Positions 30,067-45,301 of a stretch of DNA of 64,000 nt are shown piece after piece. The stretch is taken from contig JAHHHM010000003.1 in the NCBI GenBank assembly GCA_019359355.1, positions 124,001-188,000 on the forward strand, in the 5' to 3' direction. The notes beneath the pieces are model-generated. The model had not been told where the DNA came from. It worked only from the letters and a program-made list of their open reading frames with translations, and did not search any database. The stretch comes from Microcoleus vaginatus WJT46-NPBG5. Its GTDB lineage: Bacteria; Cyanobacteriota; Cyanobacteriia; Cyanobacteriales; Oscillatoriaceae. The position numbers and the translations under genes were made by a program. Numbering within the stretch: the first letter of the stretch is position 1; every line of letters starts with the position of its first letter.

Positions 30067-31386
30067 ATGGACAAGCAAGCATCGGATGACTTGATGCAGA
30101 AAATTCGTCAACAATTTGACACAGCTCCTTATCCCAGAAAGCCTCTAGAATCATCTCCTAAGAATGAGCCTAACTTTCTTTTTACTCATAATTTAGTCAC
30201 GCCTTACTATTTAAGAAATCAAAAAGTTATAGAAACCGAAGGGAAAGTTATTTTAGATGCCGGTTGCGGAAGTGGCTACAAAGCCTTGGCTTTAGCTGAG
30301 GCCAATCCCGGCGCTAAAATTGTGGGAGTTGACCTATCAGAAGAATCCGTTAAGCTAGCCCGACAGCGATTAGAGTACCACGGATTTGAAAGTACAGAAT
30401 TTTATGCAATTTCCATAGAAGAATTACCAACCTTAAATTTACAATTTGATTATATTAACTGTGACGAAGTTCTTTATCTGCTGCCTGATCCAACTTTAGG
30501 ATTACAGGCGATGAAGTCTGTTTTAAAAGCCAATGGAATTATTCGGGCAAATCTGCACAGTCTTCTACAGCGTGGTTACTATCTTCGCGCTCAGAAAGCT
30601 TTCAAACTAATGGGATTAATGGAGGAAAACCCTAGAGAAGAGGAGATTGAAGCAGCAGTACAAACTATGAACGCTTTAAAAAATGAAGTGCTTCTTAAGG
30701 TTAGAACCTGGTTTGATAAGGCAGACGAACAGTGGATACTGATGAATTATTTGTTTCAAGGTGATAAAGGCTTTACAATACCTGAAATGTTTTCGGCTTT
30801 GAGGATGGCTGATTTAGAATTAATCAGTATGGTGAATTGGCGGCATTGGGAATTGCTGGATCTGTTTAACCCAGATGATTTGCCGGCCTTTTTAGCGATG
30901 AGCTTGCCTGAAGTTCCTGTGGAAGAGCAGCTGCATTTGTTTGAATTGTTACATCCAGTCCACCGTCTGCTTGATTTCTGGTGTGGTCATCCCAACCAGG
31001 CAGAACCCTCTCTATCCGTTGCCGGTTGGCAGCATTCTGACTGGGAAAAAGCTGTTGTGTACCTACATCCTCAGCTCAAAACGGCTGAGATTGAGCAAGG
31101 GGTGCTAGAGTGCATTGCGAACCACACGTCATTCACGATCAGCAGTTATATCCCGTTGCCCACCACAACTCCTATTGTGTTGGAGAGCAGTATAGCGGCT
31201 TGTCTGCTGCCATTGTGGGAGCGAGCGCTGCCGGTGAAGTCCTTGGTAGCACACTGGCTGCAAATAAGGCCGGTCGATCTGGTGACGTTGGAGCCGGTGA
31301 GCCAAGAAACAGCCTTCAAGGAAGTTAAAAAACTTTTGATGAAGCTAGAAACCTTTGTATACGTGCTTCTGGAGTGTTTAGCTTGA
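30067..31386 (+). CDS. class I SAM-dependent methyltransferase with long C-terminal domain
   Basis: 439 residues. The Rossmann methyltransferase fold is clear: motif I VILDAGCGSGYKALALAEA (about 60-78), motif II KIVGVDLSEES, motif IV FDYINCDEVLYLLPDP. Before it is a conserved QQFDTAPYPRKPLESSPKNE lead and a YY pair (TPYYLRNQ). The last ~200 residues are helical with no motif I can name. AAGGAGATATTTATAATG gives an excellent start. It is upstream of a pilin and a GT41 gene on the same strand, and in cyanobacteria methyltransferases with this N-terminus often accompany TPR/GT41 proteins, so a role in modifying a glycan or surface protein is plausible but unproven. Confidence 0.85.
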   Translation: MDKQASDDLMQKIRQQFDTAPYPRKPLESSPKNEPNFLFTHNLVTPYYLRNQKVIETEGKVILDAGCGSGYKALALAEANPGAKIVGVDLSEESVKLARQRLEYHGFESTEFYAISIEELPTLNLQFDYINCDEVLYLLPDPTLGLQAMKSVLKANGIIRANLHSLLQRGYYLRAQKAFKLMGLMEENPREEEIEAAVQTMNALKNEVLLKVRTWFDKADEQWILMNYLFQGDKGFTIPEMFSALRMADLELISMVNWRHWELLDLFNPDDLPAFLAMSLPEVPVEEQLHLFELLHPVHRLLDFWCGHPNQAEPSLSVAGWQHSDWEKAVVYLHPQLKTAEIEQGVLECIANHTSFTISSYIPLPTTTPIVLESSIAACLLPLWERALPVKSLVAHWLQIRPVDLVTLEPVSQETAFKEVKKLLMKLETFVYVLLECLA

Positions 31387-31601: not shown

Positions 31602-32126
31602 ATGAAGACAGAATTTAAAGCCAAGTTCCTGCAACACCTCAACCAAAAGAAACAGGATCAAGGTTTTACACTAATTGAACTGCTGGTCGTCGTTATCATC
31701 ATCGGTATTCTAGCTGCTATCGCATTGCCCTCACTGCTAAGCCAAACTAACAAAGCCAAGCAGGCTGAAGCAAGACAAAACGTCGGCGCTATGAACCGCG
31801 CACAACAAGCGTTTTTCCTAGAAAGAAATAACTTTACCACTGATCCCAATGAACTAGGCGTTGGCATTAAGAGCCAAACTACCAACTTCAGATACACCAT
31901 TTCTGGAACTACGAATACTGTAATTAGTAACAGAGCCGAAGGGATTGGTGCGGTTACACTCAAATCCTATTCCGGTGCAGTCGGTACTCTCCTTAGTGGG
32001 ACAGGTAGTGGAACTGAAGTCCTGACGCAAGCGCTGTTGTGTGAGTCTAATAACCCCACGAACGTTGCTTTAACTTTAGCCAACATTGATGACTGTCCGG
32101 CTAACTGGAAGAACCTGGGCAAGTAA
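31602..32126 (+). CDS. type IV pilin-like protein (PilA family)
   Basis: 174 residues with a class III signal: basic leader ending QDQG, cleavage by PilD expected after Gly21, then FTLIELLVVVIIIGILAAIA with Phe+1 and Glu+5 (Glu26), and Pro in ALPSLL. The mature part (about 153 residues) has the GspG/PilA helix then a Thr/Ser/Gly-rich globular domain with one cysteine pair near the end (CESNN...DDCPANW), the usual D-region disulfide. This matches major pilins of cyanobacteria. AAGGAGAAG before ATG and a strong terminator after the stop indicate a well expressed monocistronic gene. The Ser/Thr content offers glycosylation sites. Confidence 0.93.
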   Translation: MKTEFKAKFLQHLNQKKQDQGFTLIELLVVVIIIGILAAIALPSLLSQTNKAKQAEARQNVGAMNRAQQAFFLERNNFTTDPNELGVGIKSQTTNFRYTISGTTNTVISNRAEGIGAVTLKSYSGAVGTLLSGTGSGTEVLTQALLCESNNPTNVALTLANIDDCPANWKNLGK

Positions 32127-32242: not shown

Positions 32243-34471
32243 ATGACCTCTAAAAGCTTTCTAAATGAGCGGGTTCCGTGGCAGCAGCAGGCCCAGCAAT
32301 ATCTCGCCCAAGGAAATTATACCCAAGCTGCTAGCCTTTACGAACAAGCAATTGGAGCTGAACCTGATGTGAAGTCTCATTACTGGCATTTAGGGCTGAT
32401 GTTGCTGTTGCAGGGGCAAGAAGCAGAAGCTCACACTACTTGGTTGCTGGGAATGGTGGATGGAGAACCAGAATTGGTTGAGCAGTGGACTGAAGAACTT
32501 GTGAGGGTGCTAGAAGTTGAGATTCAGCAGCGGGAAGCTCGGGAGGAGCAGTCTGTTGCGTGGCTGCTCCGGCAGCATCTGCGAGAAATTTGCCCAGCAA
32601 ATATTAACAACCTTTTGCATCTGATCCGTCTCGCCATTCAGTTTCAAGAGTTTACAGGAGATGAACTCTATGAGTGGGGAGTAATTGAACTCCTACAGGC
32701 AGACTCAGTCCCAGACCTTGACTTCGCACTATTGATGCAAGCCTTGCGAGGGGTTTTAGACAGCGCTCCGCTGAACCCCTCATCATTGGAGTTGGTAGAA
32801 GCAAGTCTCGCTCATGTCCGTGATCCTCTGGCGTTTCTGATAGTATTGTTACCCGCCGCCGTTGTCATCGCTCATTCCTATAGGCGACCGAGACTAGCCG
32901 CGCGTTTAGCTGAACTTTATTTACAGGTGGATGCTAATCACCTAGAAGTTTTGCGCCATTTGGCAGTTTTTTATCAAAATGCTTGTGATTATGATAAAGG
33001 TATTGAAACTGCTAAGTTATGCTATTCTCTCTTAGAAAAACTCCCGGATCGAGTTCACGCTAATTCCATAATTCTTCGGGGCTTAATGAGCGCAGGTGGC
33101 TACTGGGAAGAAGCGACCTCAGTCTTCCACAGGCAAGAATCTTTGCTGTCTGAACTCATAGAAGCCCAGCCAAAAGCACTGGCTGAAATCGAAGTTTTAC
33201 GCTTATTGAATGCGAGTTTTTTTACCCCCTACTTTCAGGATTACCCGCAGAGTTATAGAACCCTTCAAAATCAATTAGCTCAGCTTTGCCAAGCAAACGT
33301 CCAAATTTATGCCCGAGAGCCAGTAAAGCGATACAAGGGAGGGATTTTACAGCGCCAGGAGGTGGGAAGTTTTTCTAAACCCCTCAAAATAGGGTATATA
33401 TCCCACTGTTTTAGGCAACATTCGGTTGGCTGGCTAGCGCGGTGGCTGCTTCAATATCATGATCGGGAACAGTTTCAAATTTATGGCTATTTCTTAACCC
33501 ATAAATGGACGCACGATCCTATAGAGGAATGGTATATTAGCCAGTTCAGCAAAGCTTACCAGTCAGCAGAAGGATTAGACGTTGCTGAACATATTTACCA
33601 AGATCAAATTGATATTTTGATCGATCTCGACAGCATCACTCTCGATACCAGTTGCGAGGTAATGATGCTAAAACCTGCTCCGGTTCAAGTCACTTGGTTG
33701 GGGTGGGATGCGACAGGAATTCCAAACGTTGACTATTTTATTGCTGACCCCTATGTTTTACCAGTCTCTGCTGAAGATTACTATTCAGAAAAAATCTGGC
33801 GCTTGCCGCAAACTTATATAGCTGTAGATGGTTTTGAGGTAGAGGTGCCGACTCTCCGACGGGATCAGCTAGATATTCCAACTGAAGCCGTGGTGTATTT
33901 CAGTGGGCAGAGGGGTTACAAGCGCCATCCCAATACGGCACGACTACAAATGAAGATTATCAAGGAAGTTCCGAATAGCTACTTTTTAGTTAAGGGGACA
34001 GCGGATGAAGAATCGATGAAAAATTTCTTTATCCAATTAGCAGAGGAGGAGGGAGTGGATTGCAAGCGCCTGCGATTTCTATCTGAAGTCGCTTCAGAAG
34101 CTGTTCACCGCGCTAATTTGAGCATCGCAGATGTGGTACTCGATACCTATCCCTACAATGGAGCCACAACTACGCTGGAAACGCTGTGGATGGGAATTCC
34201 TTTAGTCACCCGTGTGGGCGAGCAGTTTGCAGCTCGCAACAGTTACACGATGATGGTAAATGTGGGGGTAATGGAAGGAATAGCGTGGACTGATGAAGAG
34301 TATGTGGAATGGGGCGTTCGCTTAGGAAAAGAGTCGGCTTTGCGGCAACAAATTTCTTGGAAGTTGTTGCGATCTCGTCAAACCTCTCCCCTATGGAATG
34401 CCGAGCAATTTACCCGTGAAATGGAGAAAGGTTACGAACAAATGTGGCAAAGATTTCTTGACACAAAGTAG
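32243..34471 (+). CDS. GT41 (O-GlcNAc transferase/SPINDLY-like) glycosyltransferase with TPR-type N-terminus
   Basis: 742 residues. The N-terminal ~370 are alpha-helical with TPR-like units (LAQGNYTQAASLYEQAIGAE and later pairs). From about 380 the GT41 catalytic domain starts (LKIGYISHCFRQHSVGW), with APVQVTWLGWDATGIPNVDY, the nucleotide-sugar side AVVYFSGQRGYKRHPN and the hallmark DTYPYNGATTTLETLWMGIP near 632. GT41 enzymes add GlcNAc or fucose to Ser/Thr of cytosolic proteins. It sits directly after a Ser/Thr-rich pilin on the same strand. In Nostoc punctiforme a putative OGT is required for hormogonium development and motility, which makes a pilus-linked role reasonable but unproven. Confidence 0.9.
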   Translation: MTSKSFLNERVPWQQQAQQYLAQGNYTQAASLYEQAIGAEPDVKSHYWHLGLMLLLQGQEAEAHTTWLLGMVDGEPELVEQWTEELVRVLEVEIQQREAREEQSVAWLLRQHLREICPANINNLLHLIRLAIQFQEFTGDELYEWGVIELLQADSVPDLDFALLMQALRGVLDSAPLNPSSLELVEASLAHVRDPLAFLIVLLPAAVVIAHSYRRPRLAARLAELYLQVDANHLEVLRHLAVFYQNACDYDKGIETAKLCYSLLEKLPDRVHANSIILRGLMSAGGYWEEATSVFHRQESLLSELIEAQPKALAEIEVLRLLNASFFTPYFQDYPQSYRTLQNQLAQLCQANVQIYAREPVKRYKGGILQRQEVGSFSKPLKIGYISHCFRQHSVGWLARWLLQYHDREQFQIYGYFLTHKWTHDPIEEWYISQFSKAYQSAEGLDVAEHIYQDQIDILIDLDSITLDTSCEVMMLKPAPVQVTWLGWDATGIPNVDYFIADPYVLPVSAEDYYSEKIWRLPQTYIAVDGFEVEVPTLRRDQLDIPTEAVVYFSGQRGYKRHPNTARLQMKIIKEVPNSYFLVKGTADEESMKNFFIQLAEEEGVDCKRLRFLSEVASEAVHRANLSIADVVLDTYPYNGATTTLETLWMGIPLVTRVGEQFAARNSYTMMVNVGVMEGIAWTDEEYVEWGVRLGKESALRQQISWKLLRSRQTSPLWNAEQFTREMEKGYEQMWQRFLDTK

Positions 34472-34555: not shown

Positions 34556-37500
34556 TTATAAGTTTGATGATGTATGTGCAGATAAGCGCTCACGCACCGC
34601 AAGACGATAAAATTCTTCAAGTGCTTCTACGCAAGTCAAGTCATCGTACAGATAAGAATGGCGCTCCGCCATCTGCTCAATAATGCTGCTTCTCCACTCT
34701 ACATCTAGACCTAATTTAACAGCAATTTCAATATATTCAGCTTCATTTTTCGCAATTGTATCTGTTACGCCCAACATTTTCAAAATTCCGTAGGTATGGC
34801 GACCGCGCATAAATTCACCCGGACAGGTAACAACTGGCAAGTTGCAAGCGATTGCCTCTAATGTTGTGTTACCGCCCGACCAACTGAGAGTGTCTAAGAA
34901 AACATCTGAAACTAAGTTGAGTGCCCAATAATCAACTTGATTTAGGCGAGGCAAAATTACACAATACTCTTCACTATTTAAGTTAAATTCCGCAAAAGCC
35001 CGTTGGAGACGTTGCCGAAATTTTTCAGTAATATGAACGCTATTGTGACAGAGAAAAGCAAACTGAGCGTGGGGAACTTTTTGAGCAATTGCCCCAAAAA
35101 CCCAGTCATACTTCGGTAGATACTTAAAAAGAGATTGACAGGATAAATACACAACGGCTTCTTCTCGAAGCTGAAACTCCGAACGAGCTTTTTGAACTTC
35201 AGGGAGGTCAGGTTTCGCATAGGAAATTCCTATATTTGGCAACCGTATTAATGCTTCTGAATAGTGTTCTTGGGCATTTTCTGGCTCCATCAGATCGCTG
35301 GAGAGAAAATAATCAACTGTAGGTAAGCCTGATGTAATGGGATGCCCCCAGGTTGTACACTGGACTGGGGCGAGGCGAAGAGCGGCAATTTGCATCATTT
35401 GCGGATCCATACCGATATCTAACATCACCAGCACATGCACTTGATCGGTAATAACCTGCTTGCAAACCGCTTCTATATCTTCGGGAATATGACGAAAAGT
35501 ATCACTGTAAAGACGAAATTTTTGAGTAAAATAATCTATCTGTTTATGAGTATAATAGCAATAAACTTCAAAGTTTTGATGGTTGGAGTGTCGTAGCCAG
35601 CCAAGCATCAGTTTACCGACTGTATGTGCTCGCATACAGGGTGATACATAACCAATCCGAATTTTACCATTTTGGCTTAGTGGTGGCATCATTAACGCCT
35701 GTGACCATTGGGTATAGTTTGCTGCCATTATTTGATGAACAAACTGACCGTAGGGAATTTGTATATCTAAATCATTTTTCCCTTGATACTGGAGATAAAA
35801 GTTATTATGGTATCCAATATCTTCTAAGGCTCGTTTTTTGTCTTCAGGAGTTTCTAGAGAGGTTTGGTGAATTAAATCATATAAACCTTTAACAAATCTT
35901 TGTCTGTAAACTTCAATTTGTTCTTCAGTATCATAAAGAATAGGTAGAATAAGCTGGCTTTGAAGTTTCAAAGCTAAACTGTCTGGTATTACCTGTGAAG
36001 CATTGCGAAGAAAAGAGATAGCTTCATCAGGGCGACCTGCTTCTTGCAAAGCCAGACCTGCTAAAAAATAAAGAATGACTTCTTTTGGATAAACTTTGAT
36101 AGCTTCTTGTAAGGTTTCTATCGCTAGTTCATATTGGTTAAGAAATTTGTAACAAGCTGATAAAGCCCTGGAAAACTTAACGGTTACTGTTTGTGTTCTT
36201 TGATACTCTCGAAGATATTTAATTGCTTCTTCATATTCTCCCCGTTCAAAATAAGAATACCCATAGTAAAGAGTAGCCTGGGCCGGATCTTTCTTGGCAT
36301 CAAGCGCTACTCCCAAATTATAAAGAATATCAGGATCACGAGGGTTAAGTTGAAGAGCTATTTCATAAGTTTCTACCGCTTCTGCCACTTGATGACGCTC
36401 CATCAAAACATTACCCAAGTTAAGATAACTGCCGAAATGTTCTGGATTAGCTTTGATACAAGCCCGATAAATTTCTTCTGCCCGCTCAATGTCGTCACTT
36501 TGATAAAAAAGATTGCCCAGGTTGTTGTAAGCTTGAACTCCTTTTGGCTCAAGTTCTATGGTCTTTTGATAGGCTCCTATTGCTTGCCCAATTTCACCTA
36601 CTTTTTCTAGGACGACTCCTAAGTTATAAAATAGATCAGCTCTAGTTGGTTCAATTTTTAAAGCTTTAATTAATACAGTTAGCGCTTTTCTATATTGCTC
36701 TTGGTGATAATAATAAATTGCTAAATTCAACCAATGGATAGCTTTATTACTATCTAGGTGTAATAATTCTTTGTATTTAGTTTCAGTTTTTTCTGTATCT
36801 TTAATGGATTGAAATTCCAAAATTTTAATGCACAAAGCTTCAATCATTCTTTTTTTCTCCTTATCCCCCAAACTTTTAATAGCCGGCAGAACCGATTTAT
36901 TTTGCGATTGATTGAGAGTTGACCAGTCATAATTTCGAGTTTTACTAGTGTCCCAACTAAAAACCTGTAAGCCTTTCCAAGATATATAGCTACCATCATC
37001 TTTTGTGGAAGTCCAATCTAGCAACAGTTCGCATTGCGTATGGCTTGTTAAAAAGTCCCAGTTAGCTTGCCGAGCTGTTTCACAATTACTGTGACTTAAG
37101 ACAATGAGTGCTCGCTCAGCCAGTAAGGGTTTTACTAAGAGTAACGCCATTAAATGAGAGCGATAATCGTGATAACTATCATAAAAATAAACACCGATCC
37201 GATCTTCGGTTTCAAGTTCTCGAAGTTGAAATAAAAATTCTTGAATATCTTGATCGCATAAAAAAACTCGATTTTCTAAATCAAAATTAGACAAACTTTG
37301 AACTAGTTGGTTAAAGCTTTCTCCGAAAGGATCAAAATCAGAAAAATTATCAACTGCATAGGCTACTGCTTCGGGAACCTTCATCAAGGCTGCTATTAAG
37401 TTCGCTCCCTGGAAGCAACCAACTTCACAATAAACTTCGTCCTTTTCCATACACCCCACAGCAAAAGTTACTAATTGCATAACATTAGGTGTTGTTAAAC

Positions 37501-37612
37501 CCCCAATTTCGTTTAGAATTTGCTGAAATTGGTCTGACTTAGGACGAACTGAAGTTTTACCCCAATCTTCGTAAAGTTCGGGTAGCTGTTGAATAAACTT
37601 TTGGTAGTCCAT
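34556..37612 (-). CDS. fusion protein: SAM methyltransferase-like domain, TPRs and GT41 glycosyltransferase
   Basis: 1018 residues in three blocks. Residues ~40-235 are a class I methyltransferase-like domain of the Methyltransf_24 kind (EVGCFQGANLIAALM at 63-77; VYFYDSYHDYRSHLMALLLV further on). Residues ~280-600 are about nine TPRs (ADLFYNLGVVLEKVGEIGQA, VQAYNNLGNLFYQSDDIERA). From about 650 to the end is a GT41 catalytic domain (GKIRIGYVSPCMRAHTVGKL; APVQCTTWGHPITSGLPTVD; DTLSWSGGNTTLEAIACNLP). The start is ATG at 37612 with TTAGGAG upstream. It could both methylate and O-glycosylate the same or bound substrates. Its GT41 part is distinct from the one at 32243-34471. Both lie beside the pilin. 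Confidence 0.9.
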   Translation of the reverse strand: MDYQKFIQQLPELYEDWGKTSVRPKSDQFQQILNEIGGLTTPNVMQLVTFAVGCMEKDEVYCEVGCFQGANLIAALMKVPEAVAYAVDNFSDFDPFGESFNQLVQSLSNFDLENRVFLCDQDIQEFLFQLRELETEDRIGVYFYDSYHDYRSHLMALLLVKPLLAERALIVLSHSNCETARQANWDFLTSHTQCELLLDWTSTKDDGSYISWKGLQVFSWDTSKTRNYDWSTLNQSQNKSVLPAIKSLGDKEKKRMIEALCIKILEFQSIKDTEKTETKYKELLHLDSNKAIHWLNLAIYYYHQEQYRKALTVLIKALKIEPTRADLFYNLGVVLEKVGEIGQAIGAYQKTIELEPKGVQAYNNLGNLFYQSDDIERAEEIYRACIKANPEHFGSYLNLGNVLMERHQVAEAVETYEIALQLNPRDPDILYNLGVALDAKKDPAQATLYYGYSYFERGEYEEAIKYLREYQRTQTVTVKFSRALSACYKFLNQYELAIETLQEAIKVYPKEVILYFLAGLALQEAGRPDEAISFLRNASQVIPDSLALKLQSQLILPILYDTEEQIEVYRQRFVKGLYDLIHQTSLETPEDKKRALEDIGYHNNFYLQYQGKNDLDIQIPYGQFVHQIMAANYTQWSQALMMPPLSQNGKIRIGYVSPCMRAHTVGKLMLGWLRHSNHQNFEVYCYYTHKQIDYFTQKFRLYSDTFRHIPEDIEAVCKQVITDQVHVLVMLDIGMDPQMMQIAALRLAPVQCTTWGHPITSGLPTVDYFLSSDLMEPENAQEHYSEALIRLPNIGISYAKPDLPEVQKARSEFQLREEAVVYLSCQSLFKYLPKYDWVFGAIAQKVPHAQFAFLCHNSVHITEKFRQRLQRAFAEFNLNSEEYCVILPRLNQVDYWALNLVSDVFLDTLSWSGGNTTLEAIACNLPVVTCPGEFMRGRHTYGILKMLGVTDTIAKNEAEYIEIAVKLGLDVEWRSSIIEQMAERHSYLYDDLTCVEALEEFYRLAVRERLSAHTSSNL

Positions 37613-37790: not shown

Positions 37791-39483
37791 CTATGACTGT
37801 TGGTACTCTACAAAATGCTGATTACTTAAACTGTCAATACTATAGGATACAATTTTTTCTGCTTTTACTAGAGATATGGCCTGTTTATTTTCATGTTTTA
37901 AGACGATTCGAGAGTATATCTGGGGCCAAAGAGTTTCCCAATGAATTTCATACATCTGCTCAACCAGGGAAATTTCTGGCCCATCATTTACGTCTAAATC
38001 TTCCTCCATCATCAAATTCATAATAGCAGTAGACAAAAGTAGAAGGGCATCATCGTCAGCAATGTTGCTGGTATCTATTAACAAAGTGATTTTTTGTTTA
38101 CAAGGGTGAGTAACTATAGTCTTAATAACTTGGTTCACTTCTAGGCCAAGGAAATTCTTCGGAGTAGACCAATCAGGAAAAACTATTAAGTTAATATTCT
38201 TTAAATGAGTCGACCGAGAAAGATTCACTTGATCGCTGCTATTTGGTAAGGTTTCTGCGGCCCCTGAAAGCTTAACACGAATTATCTCAAGAAAACGAAG
38301 AGCCGTAGGAGCCGGCCCATAATTCTCAATAGCCCGCGTCCTGCTACAGAAATGCGTTCTAAAATTCCCGGTTCGTTGGCAATGCGCTCTACAACTTGCT
38401 CAAGGTTGTCTAGCTCAACGCCGATGTAGGGCCGCCAGTTCCCTGGCATGACTGGAAGTACCGCATTATACTTTTTAAAATCTACATGAAATGTCACGCA
38501 ACCCGCTGCTAAAGATTCCCAAAATCGCCAGATATCCCACCACTCTACATAAGGTTTTTCTGTCTAAGTACAGGGAACCATGTAACCCCCAAAACCAGCA
38601 CAAGCAATAGAAGTTTTTAAGCGTTGATAGTAATTCGGGTAGTGTCGTTGCTCTGTTTGAACCTAATATAAGTATTGATAGCTATCTAATGGGGGCTGCT
38701 CGAACTTATCAAACGTATCATAAACTGGAAAAATTGAGTTGATGAGTGGGCCAAGCTGATGCAGCGCAATTTCCCTTAAGGGATGCTCAATTTCAACTCG
38801 CATGGAGTCAATTCTTACTAACCCCGGAGGAAATTGTTCTTGAATATTTTTGTTATTACCTATTCAACTCGCATGGAGTCAATTCTTACTAACCCCGGAG
38901 GAAATTGTTCTTGAATATTTTTGTTATTACCTAGTGTGCTGTGGCTATTTCTAAAATTGCTGAGTAGCTTTTGGCTTCTGTGGTTAAAATTTATAAGCTC
39001 TTGAGTTTCTTGAATAAATAATGCGGTTAGAAAGCCCAAACGTCCAAGACCTAAAGTTGGCTAGGTAGACAGACTTGCTGTTATAGTGAGTTCTCAAAAT
39101 AATATCAAAATTTATAAAACTTGGACTCCAAGCTTGCGTAATGAGATCATCAGAATCGTCTAGATAGATGGTAATATACTTTCGTTTGATATGAAACAGA
39201 TTCTCTAGGATATTTTGGTAATGTAAAACCCATGTTTTTCCAAAACAAGAACAGCACAATCGTCAGGCGTTATCCTTGGGTCATGACATAGGAAATATTC
39301 TTCTTGCTCTGGTGATATCCGCCAATAGTTGATATTTGAATAAAAAGGTACTCCTAGTTCTTTAAATCCTTCAGCTATACAGACAGTTAAATGCTGGTAA
39401 CCAGTGCCAGAACAATAAAAAAATACTTTGCCATCAAAAGTTTGTTGTGAATGCAATAAGGCATCTGCACGCTCACTGTTCAT
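37791..39483 (-). pseudogene. disrupted glycosyltransferase-like gene with C-terminal FPDW module
   Basis: The reading can be followed from MNSERADALLHSQQTFDGKV (39483) to the end at 37791 only by changing frame several times. A shift lies near 39240 at an A-run, another near 38985, then a 71-bp tandem duplication (38792-38933), in-frame TAG codons at 38663-38665 and 38564-38566, and a last shift near 38330. The recovered pieces (YITIYLDDSDDLITQAW, IACAGFGGYMVP, YVEWWDIWRFWESLAAGCVT) look like a glycosyltransferase of the CgeB/GT1-like kind. The end holds the same ~125-residue module (INLIVFPDWS...) as the two genes upstream. With at least five lesions it is a true pseudogene, not a single sequencing error; only the module part (38270-37791) is still open. 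Confidence 0.88.
38792..38933. repeat. perfect 71-bp tandem duplication inside the glycosyltransferase pseudogene
   Basis: 38792-38862 and 38863-38933 are identical and directly adjacent. 71 is not a multiple of three, so the second copy throws the gene out of frame. Perfect identity means the event is recent relative to the point mutations around it, or it is an assembly artefact. Confidence 0.93.
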
Positions 39484-39512
39484 AAATAGTGATAGAAAAT
39501 TTTAGCTGTATT

Positions 39513-40988
39513 TTATCGTAAAAAGACTGTTTTTGCTAAGTTGACTACTTTGCAAGAAGGAAGATTCTCAGCTCCTACTTCTGAGATAACTGATATATTT
39601 TCGTTGTTTAAAGTAATTCGAGTTTGAATGCGAGGTAACAAAGCTGACCACTGGAATTTATCAATTTGGCTCAGCAAGGATATTTCAGGTTCCGTCTCAA
39701 CATCTAAATCTTCTTGCATAAAAAGATTCATGGTCACACTTGAGAGAATTACACTCGCGTCCTCGTCAAAAATATTAGAAGTATCTACTAGCAGAGTCAT
39801 CCAATTTTTTTCTGGATGCGTAACAACAGCCTTAAGAATTTCTTTTAATTCCAAGGCTAAAGCCTCTTCTCCAACAGACCAATCTGGAAAAATAATTAAA
39901 TTAATCTCTTTTAAATTTAAAGACAAGAGCGTTGCATCAATCAAAGCTGAACTCACAGTTGTTGCCATTTTTGACCATGAAAACTTTTTAGCTTGCTCAA
40001 TTCCAGCGGCAGTTAATAAAGCTCGAATATCGGTTTTTTGAATCTCACAAAGTGCATTGGTAAGCCCGTTAATATCTTCGTCATTGACATATAAAGTTGC
40101 CTGACCAGCCACTTCAGGAATGGATGAATTAGGACAAGTTATTACTGGGCAACTACAAGCCATTGCCTCTAAAATAGGTAATCCAAACCCTTCATACTTC
40201 GACGGATAAACTAATGCAACCGCACCAGAATAAGCAGCTTTTAGCTCATCATCGCTCAGTTGCAGCATATGAACCACAACACCTGAGGTGCAATTTCTAA
40301 AATCAGGTGGCAACAAACCTCCACTACCCGTGCAAAGAATTTCAAAACCATGCCGGCTGCACAACTGAGCAAACGCTTTGAAAAACAAAACAGAGTTTTT
40401 GTAACCGCTGCCAATACCAACCCCTATAAAGTAGGGTTTCGAGATCCCGTACTGGCTCTTAAACTTTATTACTTCTTCAGGAGTTCCTGGTGCAAAAGTA
40501 TCTTTGACGCCGCAATGAGCTACGATCACTGACTTTAGGGAAGCTTCTGGAAAAAATTTGACTAAGTCACGCGCTGTATTTTCTGAAATGGCTATATACG
40601 CAGATGCCTGACGAATTCCATAATGCTTCTCTCGCCACATAGGTTCATTAAAGTTAGCCCCTAATACTTCTGGGATCATGTCATATGCCATAAATACAGA
40701 AGGCGTTAATAGGGGTGTTGTGTAATAGGTTGAAATAAAAAGGTCAGCCTCTACTTCATCACAAACTTGCTGCACCATTTCGCGGTCAGCATCCGTCGCA
40801 CTATAATCATAAAATGGTATTGTCTCATACTGGATACCAGGAACCTTAGGTGCTGTACCAGCTCTATCGAGAACGACAATACGCTCGGCAAAAGTTGTGC
40901 CAGCCCATTCTTCAAGTAGGCTTTTCCAAACCCGGGCAATTCCAGTACGGTAGAGCTGGAAAAATACCCCATCAATAACGATTTTCAT
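39513..40988 (-). CDS. GT4-family glycosyltransferase with C-terminal FPDW module
   Basis: 491 residues. Residues 1-350 are a retaining GT-B glycosyltransferase of family 4: start MKIVIDGVFFQLYRTGIARV, middle GVGIGSGYKNSVLFFKAFAQ, and the donor-binding motif YEGFGLPILEAMACSCPVI (about 265-283, with the catalytic-pocket Glu). Residues about 360-475 are a separate module (EINLIIFPDWS ... MTLLVDTSN ... MNLFMQEDLDVETEPEISLL ... LLPRIQTRITL) shared with the pseudogene downstream and the methyltransferase upstream. ATG at 40988. The gene probably acts in assembly of a surface glycan; the module's role is unknown. Confidence 0.9.
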   Translation of the reverse strand: MKIVIDGVFFQLYRTGIARVWKSLLEEWAGTTFAERIVVLDRAGTAPKVPGIQYETIPFYDYSATDADREMVQQVCDEVEADLFISTYYTTPLLTPSVFMAYDMIPEVLGANFNEPMWREKHYGIRQASAYIAISENTARDLVKFFPEASLKSVIVAHCGVKDTFAPGTPEEVIKFKSQYGISKPYFIGVGIGSGYKNSVLFFKAFAQLCSRHGFEILCTGSGGLLPPDFRNCTSGVVVHMLQLSDDELKAAYSGAVALVYPSKYEGFGLPILEAMACSCPVITCPNSSIPEVAGQATLYVNDEDINGLTNALCEIQKTDIRALLTAAGIEQAKKFSWSKMATTVSSALIDATLLSLNLKEINLIIFPDWSVGEEALALELKEILKAVVTHPEKNWMTLLVDTSNIFDEDASVILSSVTMNLFMQEDLDVETEPEISLLSQIDKFQWSALLPRIQTRITLNNENISVISEVGAENLPSCKVVNLAKTVFLR

Positions 40989-41079
40989 GCTGATTATACA
41001 GTAATGATCATAGAACCCTATTTAGGAGTAGGGAAGTCAGCTGATTGCCAAACTTTACTAAACAGAGGATAAAGATAGT

Positions 41080-43374
41080 TTATTTTAAATCCCACGCCCC
41101 TGTTCTTAATTGAACAGCCCGCCCATTGATAAATCTATCTATGGGGAGTGCTGGAATGCTACCGACCATCCCTATCATCACTTCTTGGTTCTTTCCATTC
41201 TCCAAGGTAATTCGAGCCAGAACTCTTGGCAAAAGAGCAGCCCATTGGATATCATTCATTTCTGTAATTAGACAAATTTCTGCGCCGCTCATAACATCTA
41301 AATCTTCCTCCATTAAAAGGTTCATCGTGACACTAGATAAAATTAAATTTGCATCAACTTCAGAAATGTATTTCTGCTCTATCAGCAAAGTCATGTTATT
41401 TTTATCGGGATGAATTAAAACGTTTCTAAAAATATTTGATAAATCCGAAAAAAGATCCTCTTCGGGCTTGCTCCAATCAGGAGAGAATATTAAATTAATT
41501 TCCCTTAATTTTCCTAAAACCATCTGGAATTTGTCTTCACCTAATTCCATAGTGAACATGGCTTGAGCGTAAATTGGTGAGCTGTACTGTAGAGGCTGGG
41601 CAGAGGTATCTAAGTTGAGAGTGAAAGCTTCAGGTAGCTTAGTCAGTTCTAGAACTGCGATCGCATTCGCGCAAGGCCAAGGCCAGTTGTATTCGATATC
41701 ACTTAGCTTGTCTTCTTCTTCCTCGACCCACATTTCACGGGGATTTACAGGGGTGATCTCCATAGCAACTTCTCTGAGGAAGCTTTTAGAGATAGCTTGT
41801 GGAGGTATCCCATACTTAATAATTAATAAATCCAAATATTCTCGATTGAACTGGATGTACCATCCTCCATCTATTAATTTACCAAATGGAAAGGTAATTA
41901 AAGCTTTACCTTCAGTTTCCAACAATTCATAAATTTTGCAGATTGCTTTCAGAGGAGCCTCTCGATCACGTATATCAATTTGCTCTCCATATGTCTTGGA
42001 AGAAGGCTCTACTCCCTGCCCTACGTGTTCGACAGTGGAAACTGAAACGATAGTGGTATATTTCTCGTCTGAGGGCAGATCCATCAAGTCTACATTATCC
42101 ACACCTGTCGCTCTTTCAAATTTATCGACGATACGCCTTGCTCTCAGACCGAGATGTTCGCTTAATGAGTTTTCATATAAAGATAGAACATTACCAACTT
42201 CAAGAATTTTATCTTTTTTTGTGACAGTCGCTAAAAAGATAAAAGCGATAGGAATCTCAACAGCTCGCTCACCGACATTGTTAATACCAATGCGGTTGTA
42301 ATATAGAGAGTTTCCTTTAAATAAAAACTTATCTGGCCATTGTATAGTGGGATGGGCAATTTCCTCTTGATTGTGGCTTCTAGAAAAAATCTCATTACTT
42401 TTTTCATCGCTAATATATTCTTTTAACTGTGTAACAATTGGAAGAGAGTCTAATCCTTGATGTACAAGATCCGGAACCTGCGCCAAACACTCTATAATAT
42501 TGTTAGCAAAGTTGTAGCTAGGATTATTTCCATAATTTATAGTTAAGTATTTAAGAAGTTCTAAAGCATAGTCTGGAAATGAAAGGATATCTGCTAAACA
42601 AGCAAGCTTGAAAATTTTTTCAGGAGTTTTTAATGGTGTATTTATATTCGCTTGGATTAGGTCACGAAAATAAAAAGCATCAGTCCAACTTAATGTACCT
42701 GGATGACTCTGAGAAAAAATCGGAGTATCACGACGAATATTTCTATTAAGTTTTCCAAAGTCAAACAAGGTAAAACCTTGACTTCTTAAAGAGATATCTA
42801 CATCACTAAACAGAGGTTGGCCAGTATAAATCTCAGAAAACTCTATTTCAGTTAAAATACCAAGAACCCCATTTTCTACTATTTGACGAGCTCCTTCTAA
42901 AACATGAATTTCTGCACCTTGAACATCAATTTGTAAAAAATCAATTTCGTTAATTTTTTCATTTTGACAAAAAGCATCTAAAGTTGTAATTTCAATTTCT
43001 TGAACATCAACTAATTCTATTAGCTCAGAATTGCTTGCAAACCTCTTAATATACTCTTTACTCGGAGGGTAAAGAGAACTACAACCAGGATATTTAGTAA
43101 TATAAATTACTGTTTTTCCTATTTGATTACCTAATGCTTTAGGAATGTGTTTTTCTTGCCAAGTAACTTTCCTATTTGCCAAGTCTTCATTTGCTAAAGC
43201 ACAAGCTTTTTCATCCGCATCAAAGCCATATATCGTTAAGTTGGGCGCAAAAATATTCCAACCTTGATTTCCATAATCATCCAAGTTTTCTATTTTTCTA
43301 GATCCAACAATGCAGATAGTCATGTGAATTTTATCTAAATGACCACTTTGTTTTAGGCTTGGCAAGAATAACAT
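41080..43374 (-). CDS. FkbM methyltransferase plus second SAM methyltransferase-like domain plus FPDW module
   Basis: 764 residues. The first 235 form an FkbM-type methyltransferase (IYGFDADEKACALANEDLAN; IDFLQIDVQGAEIHVLEGAR; GVLGILTEIEFSEIYTGQPL). A helical stretch follows. Residues ~345-590 look like a second methyltransferase fold (KKDKILEVGNVLSLYENSL; VSVSTVEHVG; ETEGKALITFPFG). The last part (about 622-740) is the module EINLIFSPDWS ... MTLLIEQKY ... MNLLMEEDLDVMSGAEICLI ... LLPRVLARITL. AAGGAAG eight bases before ATG 43374 supports this start; ATG 43323 is an alternative. FkbM enzymes O-methylate sugars, so glycan methylation is the likely role. Confidence 0.87.
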   Translation of the reverse strand: MLFLPSLKQSGHLDKIHMTICIVGSRKIENLDDYGNQGWNIFAPNLTIYGFDADEKACALANEDLANRKVTWQEKHIPKALGNQIGKTVIYITKYPGCSSLYPPSKEYIKRFASNSELIELVDVQEIEITTLDAFCQNEKINEIDFLQIDVQGAEIHVLEGARQIVENGVLGILTEIEFSEIYTGQPLFSDVDISLRSQGFTLFDFGKLNRNIRRDTPIFSQSHPGTLSWTDAFYFRDLIQANINTPLKTPEKIFKLACLADILSFPDYALELLKYLTINYGNNPSYNFANNIIECLAQVPDLVHQGLDSLPIVTQLKEYISDEKSNEIFSRSHNQEEIAHPTIQWPDKFLFKGNSLYYNRIGINNVGERAVEIPIAFIFLATVTKKDKILEVGNVLSLYENSLSEHLGLRARRIVDKFERATGVDNVDLMDLPSDEKYTTIVSVSTVEHVGQGVEPSSKTYGEQIDIRDREAPLKAICKIYELLETEGKALITFPFGKLIDGGWYIQFNREYLDLLIIKYGIPPQAISKSFLREVAMEITPVNPREMWVEEEEDKLSDIEYNWPWPCANAIAVLELTKLPEAFTLNLDTSAQPLQYSSPIYAQAMFTMELGEDKFQMVLGKLREINLIFSPDWSKPEEDLFSDLSNIFRNVLIHPDKNNMTLLIEQKYISEVDANLILSSVTMNLLMEEDLDVMSGAEICLITEMNDIQWAALLPRVLARITLENGKNQEVMIGMVGSIPALPIDRFINGRAVQLRTGAWDLK

Positions 43375-43769: not shown

Positions 43770-44123
43770 TTACCTCGACTTCAGTTTAAATACCCAATTT
43801 CCCCCAAGATTTGTCTCAAAGGTGGCTACAGAATTGCGATTTGCGATGCCTACAATTGTTTGCGAAACTAGGTGAATCACGGTATCAATCTCATACTCAC
43901 CCATCTGTCGTTCCAGCAAAGCTTGATCAAGTACATCACCCCGCAGCACTTTTACTTGATCGATGAGCAGGCTGCGAACTAATTGACTTACTAAGCATAC
44001 GACATCAACACACAAATTGATTAGCCGGCGCACTAGTCATATTCCCACCAAGCCGGTAGCGCCGGTAATAAAGGTAGGACGATCTTGCCAAAAGAAATTG
44101 CTGCCTGTTAATGTCACTCTCAT
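43770..44123 (-). pseudogene. truncated NAD-dependent sugar dehydratase/epimerase (RfbG-like remnant)
   Basis: From ATG 44123 the frame reads NFFWQDRPTFITGATGLVGI, with the FWQ(G/D)R lead and Gly-rich NAD-binding loop of CDP-glucose 4,6-dehydratases. It then meets a TGA near 44040, resumes as [36 protein letters not shown] and [10 protein letters not shown], and ends after about 118 residues of an expected ~360. The C-terminal two thirds, with the YxxxK catalytic motif, are missing. Its start overlaps the rfbF stop (ATGA), the classic rfbF-rfbG arrangement. CDP-glucose dehydratase is favoured over GDP-mannose dehydratase because of that neighbour. Confidence 0.85.
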
Positions 44124-44888
44124 ACCTTCCAAGGCGATTTTCCACTCTGCCAAAGACTTTCTAAGAATCTTACATCCCGCAGTCTATCCATACATTGCCA
44201 AAAGTCATAAGACCTATAAGCGGCTAATTGCCCATCTGCCGCCAAGTATTCCAATACATCTGATTCTAAGCGGGAATTATCTTCTTCGAGGTATTTGAAA
44301 ACTTCCGGTTCTAGTACCAGAAATCCCCCGTTAATGCAGCCTTCACCGGCTTGAAGTTTGTCTGTAAATTTAGCGACTAAATCGCCCTCAAAGATTAAAC
44401 CACCAAATTGGGCAGGTGGACGAACTCCTGTAACCGTTTCCAGTCGCCCATGAGAACGGTGAAACTTTAATAAATCTTGAAGATTAATATTACTAACGCC
44501 ATCCCCGTAAGTCACCATAAAGGTGTCATTGTTTCAGCCATGATTTTAAACGCTTGATCCGACCGCCAGTGATTGCGTGCAGACCTGTATCCATCAAATG
44601 TACCGTCCAATCTTCGCATTCTTTTTCACGCACATCAATAGAGCCATCAGACAAATTGATCGTTATACTGCCGTTGAGCGTGTAATAGTCTAAGAAGTAA
44701 CGTTTAATCACCTCTCCCTTGTAGCCCAAAGCTATAAAAAAATCTTTAAATTCATAATGGGCCTACTGCTTCATAATATGCCAAAGAATAGGCCGGCCAC
44801 CTATCTTTACCATTGGCTTAGGTTTAACTTCCGTCTCCTCGCTTAGGCGAGTGCCTAAACCGCCGGCAAGAATCACAACTCGTATCGG
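44120..44888 (-). pseudogene. rfbF: glucose-1-phosphate cytidylyltransferase, inactivated
   Basis: The protein can be read as [40 protein letters not shown], then a TAG at 44763-44765, then ALGYKGEVIKRYFLDYYTLN and TGGRIKRLKSWLKQ. A TGA at 44526 with a one-base shift follows, then TFMVTYGDGVSNINLQDLLK and GGFLVLEPEVFKYLEED to the TGA at 44120. The pyrophosphorylase signature GGxGTRLxxxT, the RPI(L)W motif and VTYGDG mark it as RfbF, which makes CDP-glucose from CTP and glucose-1-phosphate. No clear start codon remains (GTG at 44876 lies inside the first strand). Its position 15-20 bases after the upstream TPR gene suggests a former operon. Confidence 0.9.
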
Positions 44889-44902: not shown

Positions 44903-45301
44903 TTAAGGCTGGTTTACCGGCTGCTTCACTTGAGCCAATAGCGCTTTATAATCTTGCCGGTCAGGATGCAGCTTGATAAGTTTTTCTAAAGGTACTGTTG
45001 CCCCCTTATTGTCCTTCATTTGCAGTCGAACATTTACCAGTCCTTCCAGTGCTGTTTGGTTCTCTGGTTCCCGCTGCAATACCATTTCATAGCCCCGCGC
45101 TTGCCCAGCGAGTGGCGATTCTGCCGGCGCTGCATCTGTTGTTTGCTCAGTTGGCTTGTCAAACGCACTGCCGAAAAGTTTAGCGGTGCCAAATATCATA
45201 GAACCGGCAAACCCTACGATTCCGACAACAGCAAAAACCTGCTGAATTCGCTGAGTCCGCTTGCGGCGGGACATATCATACTCTTTTTCTAGATAACTCA
45301 T
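44903..45301 (-). CDS. membrane-anchored TPR-like protein
   Basis: 132 residues from ATG 45301 ([20 protein letters not shown]). A basic start is followed by one membrane helix ([20 protein letters not shown], about 21-40), an acidic Pro/Ala-rich linker and a TPR-like tail ([40 protein letters not shown]). Frame continues upstream to 45421, but that part is not protein-like for the family and has no better start. This is a common cyanobacterial protein type of unknown function, probably scaffolding at the membrane. Confidence 0.75.

Follow-up and report, generated by a model that had tools for sequence, protein, structure and literature searches.

An accessory module with the fold of a glycosyltransferase lobe on enzymes of predicted cyanobacterial pilin-glycosylation loci

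The window examined here is a stretch of 64,000 nucleotides from Microcoleus vaginatus WJT46-NPBG5 (assembly GCA_019359355.1, contig JAHHHM010000003.1, positions 124,001 to 188,000). Three neighbouring genes on its reverse strand share a C-terminal module of about 135 residues, which is an accessory domain, new and apparently undescribed, with the fold of a glycosyltransferase lobe. Judged from gene content and order, the locus that bears it is the cyanobacterial pilA-ogt pilin-glycosylation locus. We infer, at a probability of roughly 0.42, that the module is a non-catalytic, degenerate C-lobe of the GT-B type, acting as a mobile adaptor through which tailoring enzymes would be docked together in a single assembly for pilin glycosylation. 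The evidence for linkage is strong and that for the mechanism is modest. We rate non-catalytic GT-B proteins in protein glycosylation, and the pilA-ogt locus itself, as a known kind of system; what is new is the module marking the enzymes of the locus.

Pilin modification matters for pilus assembly and motility in cyanobacteria, and, in the portions consulted of the two publications, the glycan is so far tied only to Ogt and a few scattered genes (PMC12288463, PMC7076178). In 63 of 386 genomes the module singles out enzymes that are candidates for tailoring the glycan and that can be found by the tag, and it points to a conserved partner gene.

The module and its fold

The three tails (P1, P2 and P3) are 38-50% identical. 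BLASTP aligned P1 with P3 at 48.5% over 136 residues (E 1.7e-39, 129 bits), P1 with P2 at 50% over 136 (E 9e-31, 114 bits) and P2 with P3 at 38% over 137 (E 7e-29, 101 bits), compared with a top score of 31.2 bits among 200 shuffles of the first tail. A preliminary description, made from the sequence alone, had claimed this common ending for genes at 37791-39483, 39513-40988 and 41080-43374, and both the shared tail and the coordinates hold. The motifs it quoted were approximate, as copy 1 reads MTLLVD and copy 3 reads ITLLID, MNLMMEEDLDV and WPQIYSRIVL. The full carrier genes are those of the GT4 enzyme (39513-40988), in which the Pfam GT4 matches stop at or before residue 316, ahead of the tail, and of a protein with an FkbM and a second methyltransferase-like part (41080-43374). 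The latter had been called a double methyltransferase; its FkbM domain is clear (E 1.4e-17), and the second half is so assigned by sequence pattern only, because it has no Pfam match at E<=1.

The AlphaFold2 (AF2) model of the module (predicted local distance difference test, pLDDT, 90.4; predicted template modelling score, pTM, 0.85) consists of five alternating strands and helices. Its top Foldseek match is Asp1 (E 5e-4). A structural aligner also placed Asp1 first (Z 10.0, root-mean-square deviation 3.1, 123 residues), followed by residues 369-524 of XcOGT (Z 9.6, deviation 2.7, 118 residues), UDP-GlcNAc 2-epimerase (Z 8.7), Gap1 (Z 8.3), the catalytic domain of a cholesterol-glucosyltransferase (Z 8.2) and SPINDLY (Z 7.6). 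The first 28 rows are GT-B-type chains, as judged from their titles, and the highest-ranked chain of another type is 2rbg, with Z 7.3. The model thus supports a fold like that of the nucleotide-binding lobe at the C-terminal end of GT-B enzymes, with a margin over chance folds that is not wide, and agrees with the Rossmann-like accessory domain that the preliminary description had predicted.

At the sequence level the module stands apart. Comparison with GT4 and GT41 lobes by hhalign gave probabilities of 0.2-4.7%, that is, no detectable homology, compared with 80-82% for GT4 against GT41 C-lobes as a positive control; with the module reaching at most 4.7%, the comparison supports kinship with GT-B lobes in fold and not in descent. 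A profile of 115 copies had no match at E<=10 among PDB sequences, and the window tails had no Pfam or NCBIfam match over the cut-off, the sole weak Pfam match scoring 14.3 bits against a cut-off of 27. Scans of all 115 copies gave best E values of 0.0027 for Pfam (four members) and 2.4e-4 for NCBIfam (ten members, PurH family), and we read these scattered weak matches as chance, with no convincing match among them. Among five copies, PHROGs yielded two matches, each to a single member and weak (E 0.0064 and 0.075), and a viral structure library contained no match at E<=1e-3. No publication describing the module or its locus was found, as judged by titles and abstract openings. A known domain and an ordinary half of a catalytic fold, the two outcomes that would have spoken against the preliminary description, are both ruled out: the former by the Pfam, NCBIfam and PDB-sequence searches, the latter because the catalytic domains are complete before the tail, the module also occurs N-terminal of GT41, and the profiles are unrelated.

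In GT-B enzymes the catalytic motifs are a phosphate-binding Lys or Arg after strand 1 and the Glu pair of the EX7E motif. Among 115 module copies, Lys or Arg in the loop after strand 1 (residues 13-20) occurs in only 13, and the EX7E pair (E109 with E117) in none. The module is also a single lobe that follows complete catalytic domains and does not form a two-lobe donor/acceptor cleft. It is therefore best described as a degenerate extra lobe and not as half of a catalytic domain, because it has the GT-B C-lobe fold without the sequence homology or the catalytic motifs. Among the most conserved residues are F13, W16 (115/115), E20 (113/115), P14 (112/115), D15 (109/115), E109 (105/115) and N110 (96/115), which belong to the loops that follow strand 1 and strand 4, at the position of the donor site in GT-B lobes. 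N9, L61, S62, M66, N67, W93 and L106 are equally conserved outside those loops, and helix 2 is strongly conserved (L61, S62, M66, N67 and L68). This pattern would fit a pocket with a changed use; the residues could also be buried and structural.

Two known groups of proteins resemble the module in structure. The C-lobe of GT41 (XcOGT, 2vsn; human OGT; SPINDLY) can be aligned over the whole module, and each of the 53 module loci with full flanks encodes a GT41 domain, but profile similarity is 0.2%, and the module, a separate tag, comes without an N-lobe or the catalytic or UDP-binding residues. Asp1 and Gap1, structurally the closest (Z 10.0 and 8.3), both belong to glycosylation and export systems of streptococcal serine-rich-repeat adhesins, and we take Asp1 to be a non-catalytic GT-B protein. 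Each is a free-standing protein some 500 residues long, whereas the module is one lobe fused to many enzymes, and the PDB profile search (E<=10) found no sequence match to them. In the part of the report available, Asp1 forms a complex with Asp2 and Asp3 that is needed for export of GspB (PMC7948813).

Occurrence and linkage to the pilA-ogt locus

Of 386 genomes sampled from across the phylum, 63 have the module, and these represent 39 of 143 genera; all 63 are the genome of the window itself or belong to its order or class. A GTDB-wide contig scan confirmed 118 relatives, and the 77 loci formed by the best 80 of the 118 all have cyanobacterial titles. Forty pattern matches on viral contigs included none confirmed as the module, and one tail used as query had no match among plasmids and phages; a phage or plasmid origin is ruled out by these searches.

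In the window, the gene order is a methyltransferase, a PilA-type pilin and a GT41 protein, followed on the opposite strand by an island of a methyltransferase-TPR-GT41 protein, the three module carriers and a small membrane protein with tetratricopeptide repeats (TPR), here called TPRm. The pilA and GT41 genes lie on the same strand, 116 bp apart. The features are as follows.

30067-31386, forward: S-adenosylmethionine (SAM) methyltransferase upstream of pilA (PF13847, E 6.2e-27); its cluster is found in 26 of 78 loci, the window included
31602-32126, forward: PilA-type pilin (N_methyl PF07963, E 6.9e-10; Pilin_GH PF16734, E 1.1e-25)
32243-34471, forward: TPR-GT41 protein adjoining pilA, in the ogt position (PF13844, E 3.9e-54; synteny)
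34556-37612, reverse: methyltransferase-TPR-GT41 island protein without module (PF13578, E 1.7e-10; TPR families; PF13844, E 3.8e-31)
37791-39483, reverse: pseudogene of a GT-B glycosyltransferase with module (intact homologues such as L009:6708-8387)
37794-38195, reverse: module copy 3, still open within the pseudogene (sequence match to the other copies)
39516-39926, reverse: module copy 1, C-terminus of the GT4 enzyme, residues 355-491 (AF2 model, pLDDT 90.4)
39927-40988, reverse: GT4 catalytic part (PF13692, E 3.2e-18; PF00534, E 4.4e-15)
41083-41508, reverse: module copy 2, C-terminus of the FkbM/second-methyltransferase protein (sequence match to the other copies)
41509-42342, reverse: second SAM-methyltransferase-like domain (sequence pattern only; weak NF040703, E 0.026)
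42670-43374, reverse: FkbM methyltransferase domain (PF05050, E 1.4e-17; TIGR01444, E 2.1e-14)
44903-45274, reverse: TPRm, small one-helix membrane TPR protein at the far end of the island (TPR_19, 25.2 bits against a cut-off of 25)

This layout recurs. Counting the window, 44 loci hold pilA, ogt (GT41) and TPRm. In all 44, TPRm is encoded on the island strand; in 43, the GT41 gene nearest pilA faces TPRm, and in 43 the interval between ogt and TPRm contains one or more modules. Open reading frames (ORFs) of at least 200 residues on the island strand carry the module in 57 of 94 cases. Every one of the 53 full-flank loci encodes a GT41 domain, either on its own or joined to the module, and 44 of them encode pilA as well, with GT41 and pilA on the same strand in 43 of the 44 that hold both (open-frame gaps of 24-1085 bp). 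The module lies within 25 kb of a PilA-type pilin in at least 48 of the 63 module genomes and within 9 kb in at least 44; on a rough estimate, a random site in a 6-Mb genome would be that near a pilin in about 1% of cases. GT41 was found within 10 kb of a pilin in at least 48 of 61 module genomes and at least 16 of 55 others. As a control, 20 pilA loci from module-lacking genomes (picked by hand, four of them shorter at 3.5-17 kb) contained neither TPRm nor, even at E<=10, a module, while GT41 was present in 18 and FkbM-type genes in eight. In four module-lacking pilA-GT41 loci (L118, L120, L121 and L124) FkbM-type proteins of about 530-580 residues occur instead, perhaps another form of the island.

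In the part of a review consulted here, ogt adjoins pilA and takes part in PilA glycosylation (PMC12288463). The likeness of the loci above to the pilA-ogt locus lies in the pilin with a GT41 gene beside it; the module-bearing island and the far-end TPRm are a difference, being unmentioned in that part of the review (PMC12288463). The earlier proposal that the module defines a class of cyanobacterial loci is thus borne out by the pilin linkage and the conserved pilA-ogt-TPRm synteny. Sole dependence of the module on pilA or on TPRm is ruled out since dissociations go both ways: among the matches listed for the 63 module genomes, it is near both pilA and TPRm in 39, near TPRm only in seven, near pilA only in nine and near neither in eight.

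Fusion partners were tabulated for 124 copies covering at least 100 model positions. The module directly follows GT4 in 60, an unclassified GT-B domain in ten, GT41 in ten, FkbM in five, an MT2 domain in three, GT2 in two, another methyltransferase in one, another module in five and an unassigned partner in 14; it precedes GT41 in nine and something else, or stands alone, in five. Window copy 3 counts as N-terminal in this tabulation solely on account of its broken gene. When 11 of the 14 unassigned partners were scanned with Pfam, group-1 glycosyltransferases were identified in five and an FkbM-TPR-GT61 protein in one, with the module after GT61, and no confident family in five. The preliminary description was therefore right that the catalytic parts differ in fold, and they differ in chemistry as well, the module being found on GT4, GT2, GT41, GT61, FkbM and unclassified GT-B domains. 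In a tree of the tails, in which only 25 of 121 branches are well supported, 20 partner changes were counted without the unassigned copies and 32 with them, compared with 60.8 after shuffling. In Okeania and Trichodesmium, tails of GT4, FkbM and GT-B enzymes cluster together (Shimodaira-Hasegawa-like approximate likelihood ratio test 88-94, below starred support), and because tails of different enzymes group in this way, module tails have probably moved between neighbouring genes.

Covariation, proposed role and alternatives

Sequence covariation was assessed with distances of pilA, GT41, TPRm, the GT4 domain, the module and gyrB in the 40 of 78 loci that have pilA, GT41, TPRm and a GT4-fused module, each pair being corrected for the four others in partial Mantel tests. 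Covariation of GT41 with pilA (r 0.38, p 0.001) is what an enzyme and its substrate would be expected to show. The module covaried with TPRm (r 0.34, p 0.001), a relation that held within Nostocales (0.30, p 0.03) as well as among the remaining 20 loci (0.38, p 0.001), and did not covary with pilA (-0.11, p 0.96), so direct recognition of the pilin protein by the module is unsupported by covariation. The GT4 domain covaried with pilA (0.21, p 0.001), failing in the non-Nostocales half (0.04, p 0.36), and gave 0.11 (p 0.11) with TPRm. Although the GT4 domain and module share one protein, module-TPRm exceeded GT4-TPRm in 99% of 200 overlapping jackknives. These values suggest a division in which the catalytic part varies with the pilin and the module with TPRm, which is a lead and not proof. 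In several genomes the gyrB matches are split at residue 439 or 507 within one long open frame, and these splits look like interrupting inteins.

Short TPRm rows were selected by an open frame under about 220 residues, apart from the longer paralogues (open frames of about 290-340 residues) that occur in many of the genomes searched. Short forms are also present in at least 12 genomes without the module. The TPRm copy of locus L007 falls under the TPR_19 cut-off of 25, at 23.1 bits. TPRm has one hydrophobic segment, and its N-terminal side is the more positive in 52 of 53.

According to the proposed adaptor mechanism, Ogt would add the first sugar to PilA, and the module-bearing glycosyltransferases and methyltransferases, held together by their common module, would then extend and cap the glycan. 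The island enzymes would thus act on PilA and the module would dock, the best candidate partner being TPRm, directly or via another protein. A precedent for a non-catalytic domain finding a filament protein is FlmG of Caulobacter, which, in the part of the report seen, is a GT-B O-glycosyltransferase that finds flagellins via a separate TPR domain (PMC7591256); FlmG uses TPR repeats on one enzyme, whereas the module has another fold and is common to many. If the adaptor role is correct, it represents a new use of the GT-B fold, with a single non-catalytic lobe as a fusion adaptor. A broader form of the idea, which we consider doubtful, is that a dead glycosyltransferase lobe became a general address tag on enzymes recruited for pilin decoration and that the membrane TPR protein, directly or via a partner, collects them at the site of pilin synthesis; were this so, exchange of the catalytic domains attached to an unchanging tag could allow rapid change of the pilus glycan.

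Several observations weigh against the adaptor. TPRm is predicted to be N-in with its TPR outside the cytoplasm, which makes direct contact with cytosolic enzymes doubtful, and the module-TPRm link may be indirect. TPRm also covaries with GT41 (0.27, p 0.011) and tracks gyrB closely (r 0.72). When gyrB alone is removed, all nine tested pairs are positive, including module-pilA (0.12, p 0.01) and GT4-TPRm (0.38, p 0.0005), partial Mantel tests are permissive, and a single conserved species marker may leave species signal. The module is absent from 37 of the 94 island ORFs, and two of the five copies in the window's own genome sit on contigs other than that of pilA. Among the matches listed, it is not near a pilin in 15 of 63 genomes (on the same contig in six, not in nine) and not near TPRm in 17. 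The docking domain gathering enzymes, as first proposed, is compatible with the TPRm covariation, but the predicted topology of TPRm places its TPR on the opposite side of the membrane.

The chief rival, itself unlikely in our estimate, is that the old nucleotide-sugar pocket has become lectin-like and binds the first sugar or sugars on PilA, guiding enzymes to the primed pilin. Aromatic and acidic residues suit a sugar site, and such residues are among those conserved at the GT-B donor-site position (F13, P14, D15, W16, E20, E109 and N110); in structure the module comes closest to Asp1, and Gap1 is also among the matches. If the core sugar is constant, the lack of covariation between module and pilin sequence would be explained. 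However, these residues may be buried and structural, equal conservation is seen elsewhere in the module, and such a reader does not predict the covariation with TPRm. It is less probable again that modules bind one another, bringing island enzymes into homo- or hetero-oligomers. Tandem copies within one protein (5 of 124 have a module directly upstream), loci with several carriers and the strongly conserved helix 2 would suit this, but many loci have a single island carrier, where only homomers are possible.

We regard as improbable a role as allosteric sensor, with the lobe retaining nucleotide or sugar-nucleotide binding and thereby adjusting the activity of the enzyme to which it is joined; a sensor domain had been the second suggestion of the preliminary description. 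The GT-B C-lobe fold and conserved pocket position are in its favour, but the scarcity of Lys or Arg in loop 13-20 (13/115) and absence of the E109-E117 pair (0/115) are not, and one common nucleotide is less likely because the module sits on methyltransferases and on different glycosyltransferase families. Least credible of all is an evolutionary passenger, a domain that does little by itself and has spread as adjacent genes recombined: the tails have apparently been exchanged between neighbours, but the module is conserved over divergent cyanobacteria with invariant positions, it is still open in the pseudogene, and it covaries with TPRm.

Decayed genes and further copies

The third carrier had been described as a glycosyltransferase pseudogene, and this was confirmed. 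The region 37791-39483 contains in-frame stops and frame changes, and the intact homologue L009:6708-8387 aligns to it piecewise over 39483-37812, using more than one reading frame. Positions 38792-38933 within it are an exact tandem duplication of 71 nt. Intact homologues elsewhere are about 560 residues long; two of them, L009:6708-8387 and L023:9580-11181, have no Pfam match at E<=0.01. The AF2 model of the N-domain of this family has a GT-B fold, with Z 15.2 to T4 AGT (T4 alpha-glucosyltransferase). This supports the label of glycosyltransferase, the GT-B assignment being moderate because the model has 13 rows and pLDDT 68. The N-domain of about 400 residues, usually with the module attached, recurs at L009:6708-8387 and in L034, L019, L023, L012, L014, L083, L062, L016 and L029, and is a candidate new glycosyltransferase family on the basis of its predicted structure.

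The genome of the window contains two further module copies on other contigs, five in total. One lies at the end of a GT2-methyltransferase protein (contig C27) and the other inside a GT2-[module]-TPR-GT41 protein (C41). The C41 gene (G000:C41:371-3286, L114) adjoins genes resembling miaA and gyrB, and no pilin was recognised in the ORF list for this 12-kb stretch. In the window, a fragment of an NDP-sugar dehydratase/epimerase gene (43770-44033, reverse) and one of a glucose-1-phosphate cytidylyltransferase gene (44120-44518, reverse; TIGR02623, positions 124-254 of 255) are decayed sugar-nucleotide genes that accompany the decayed third glycosyltransferase.

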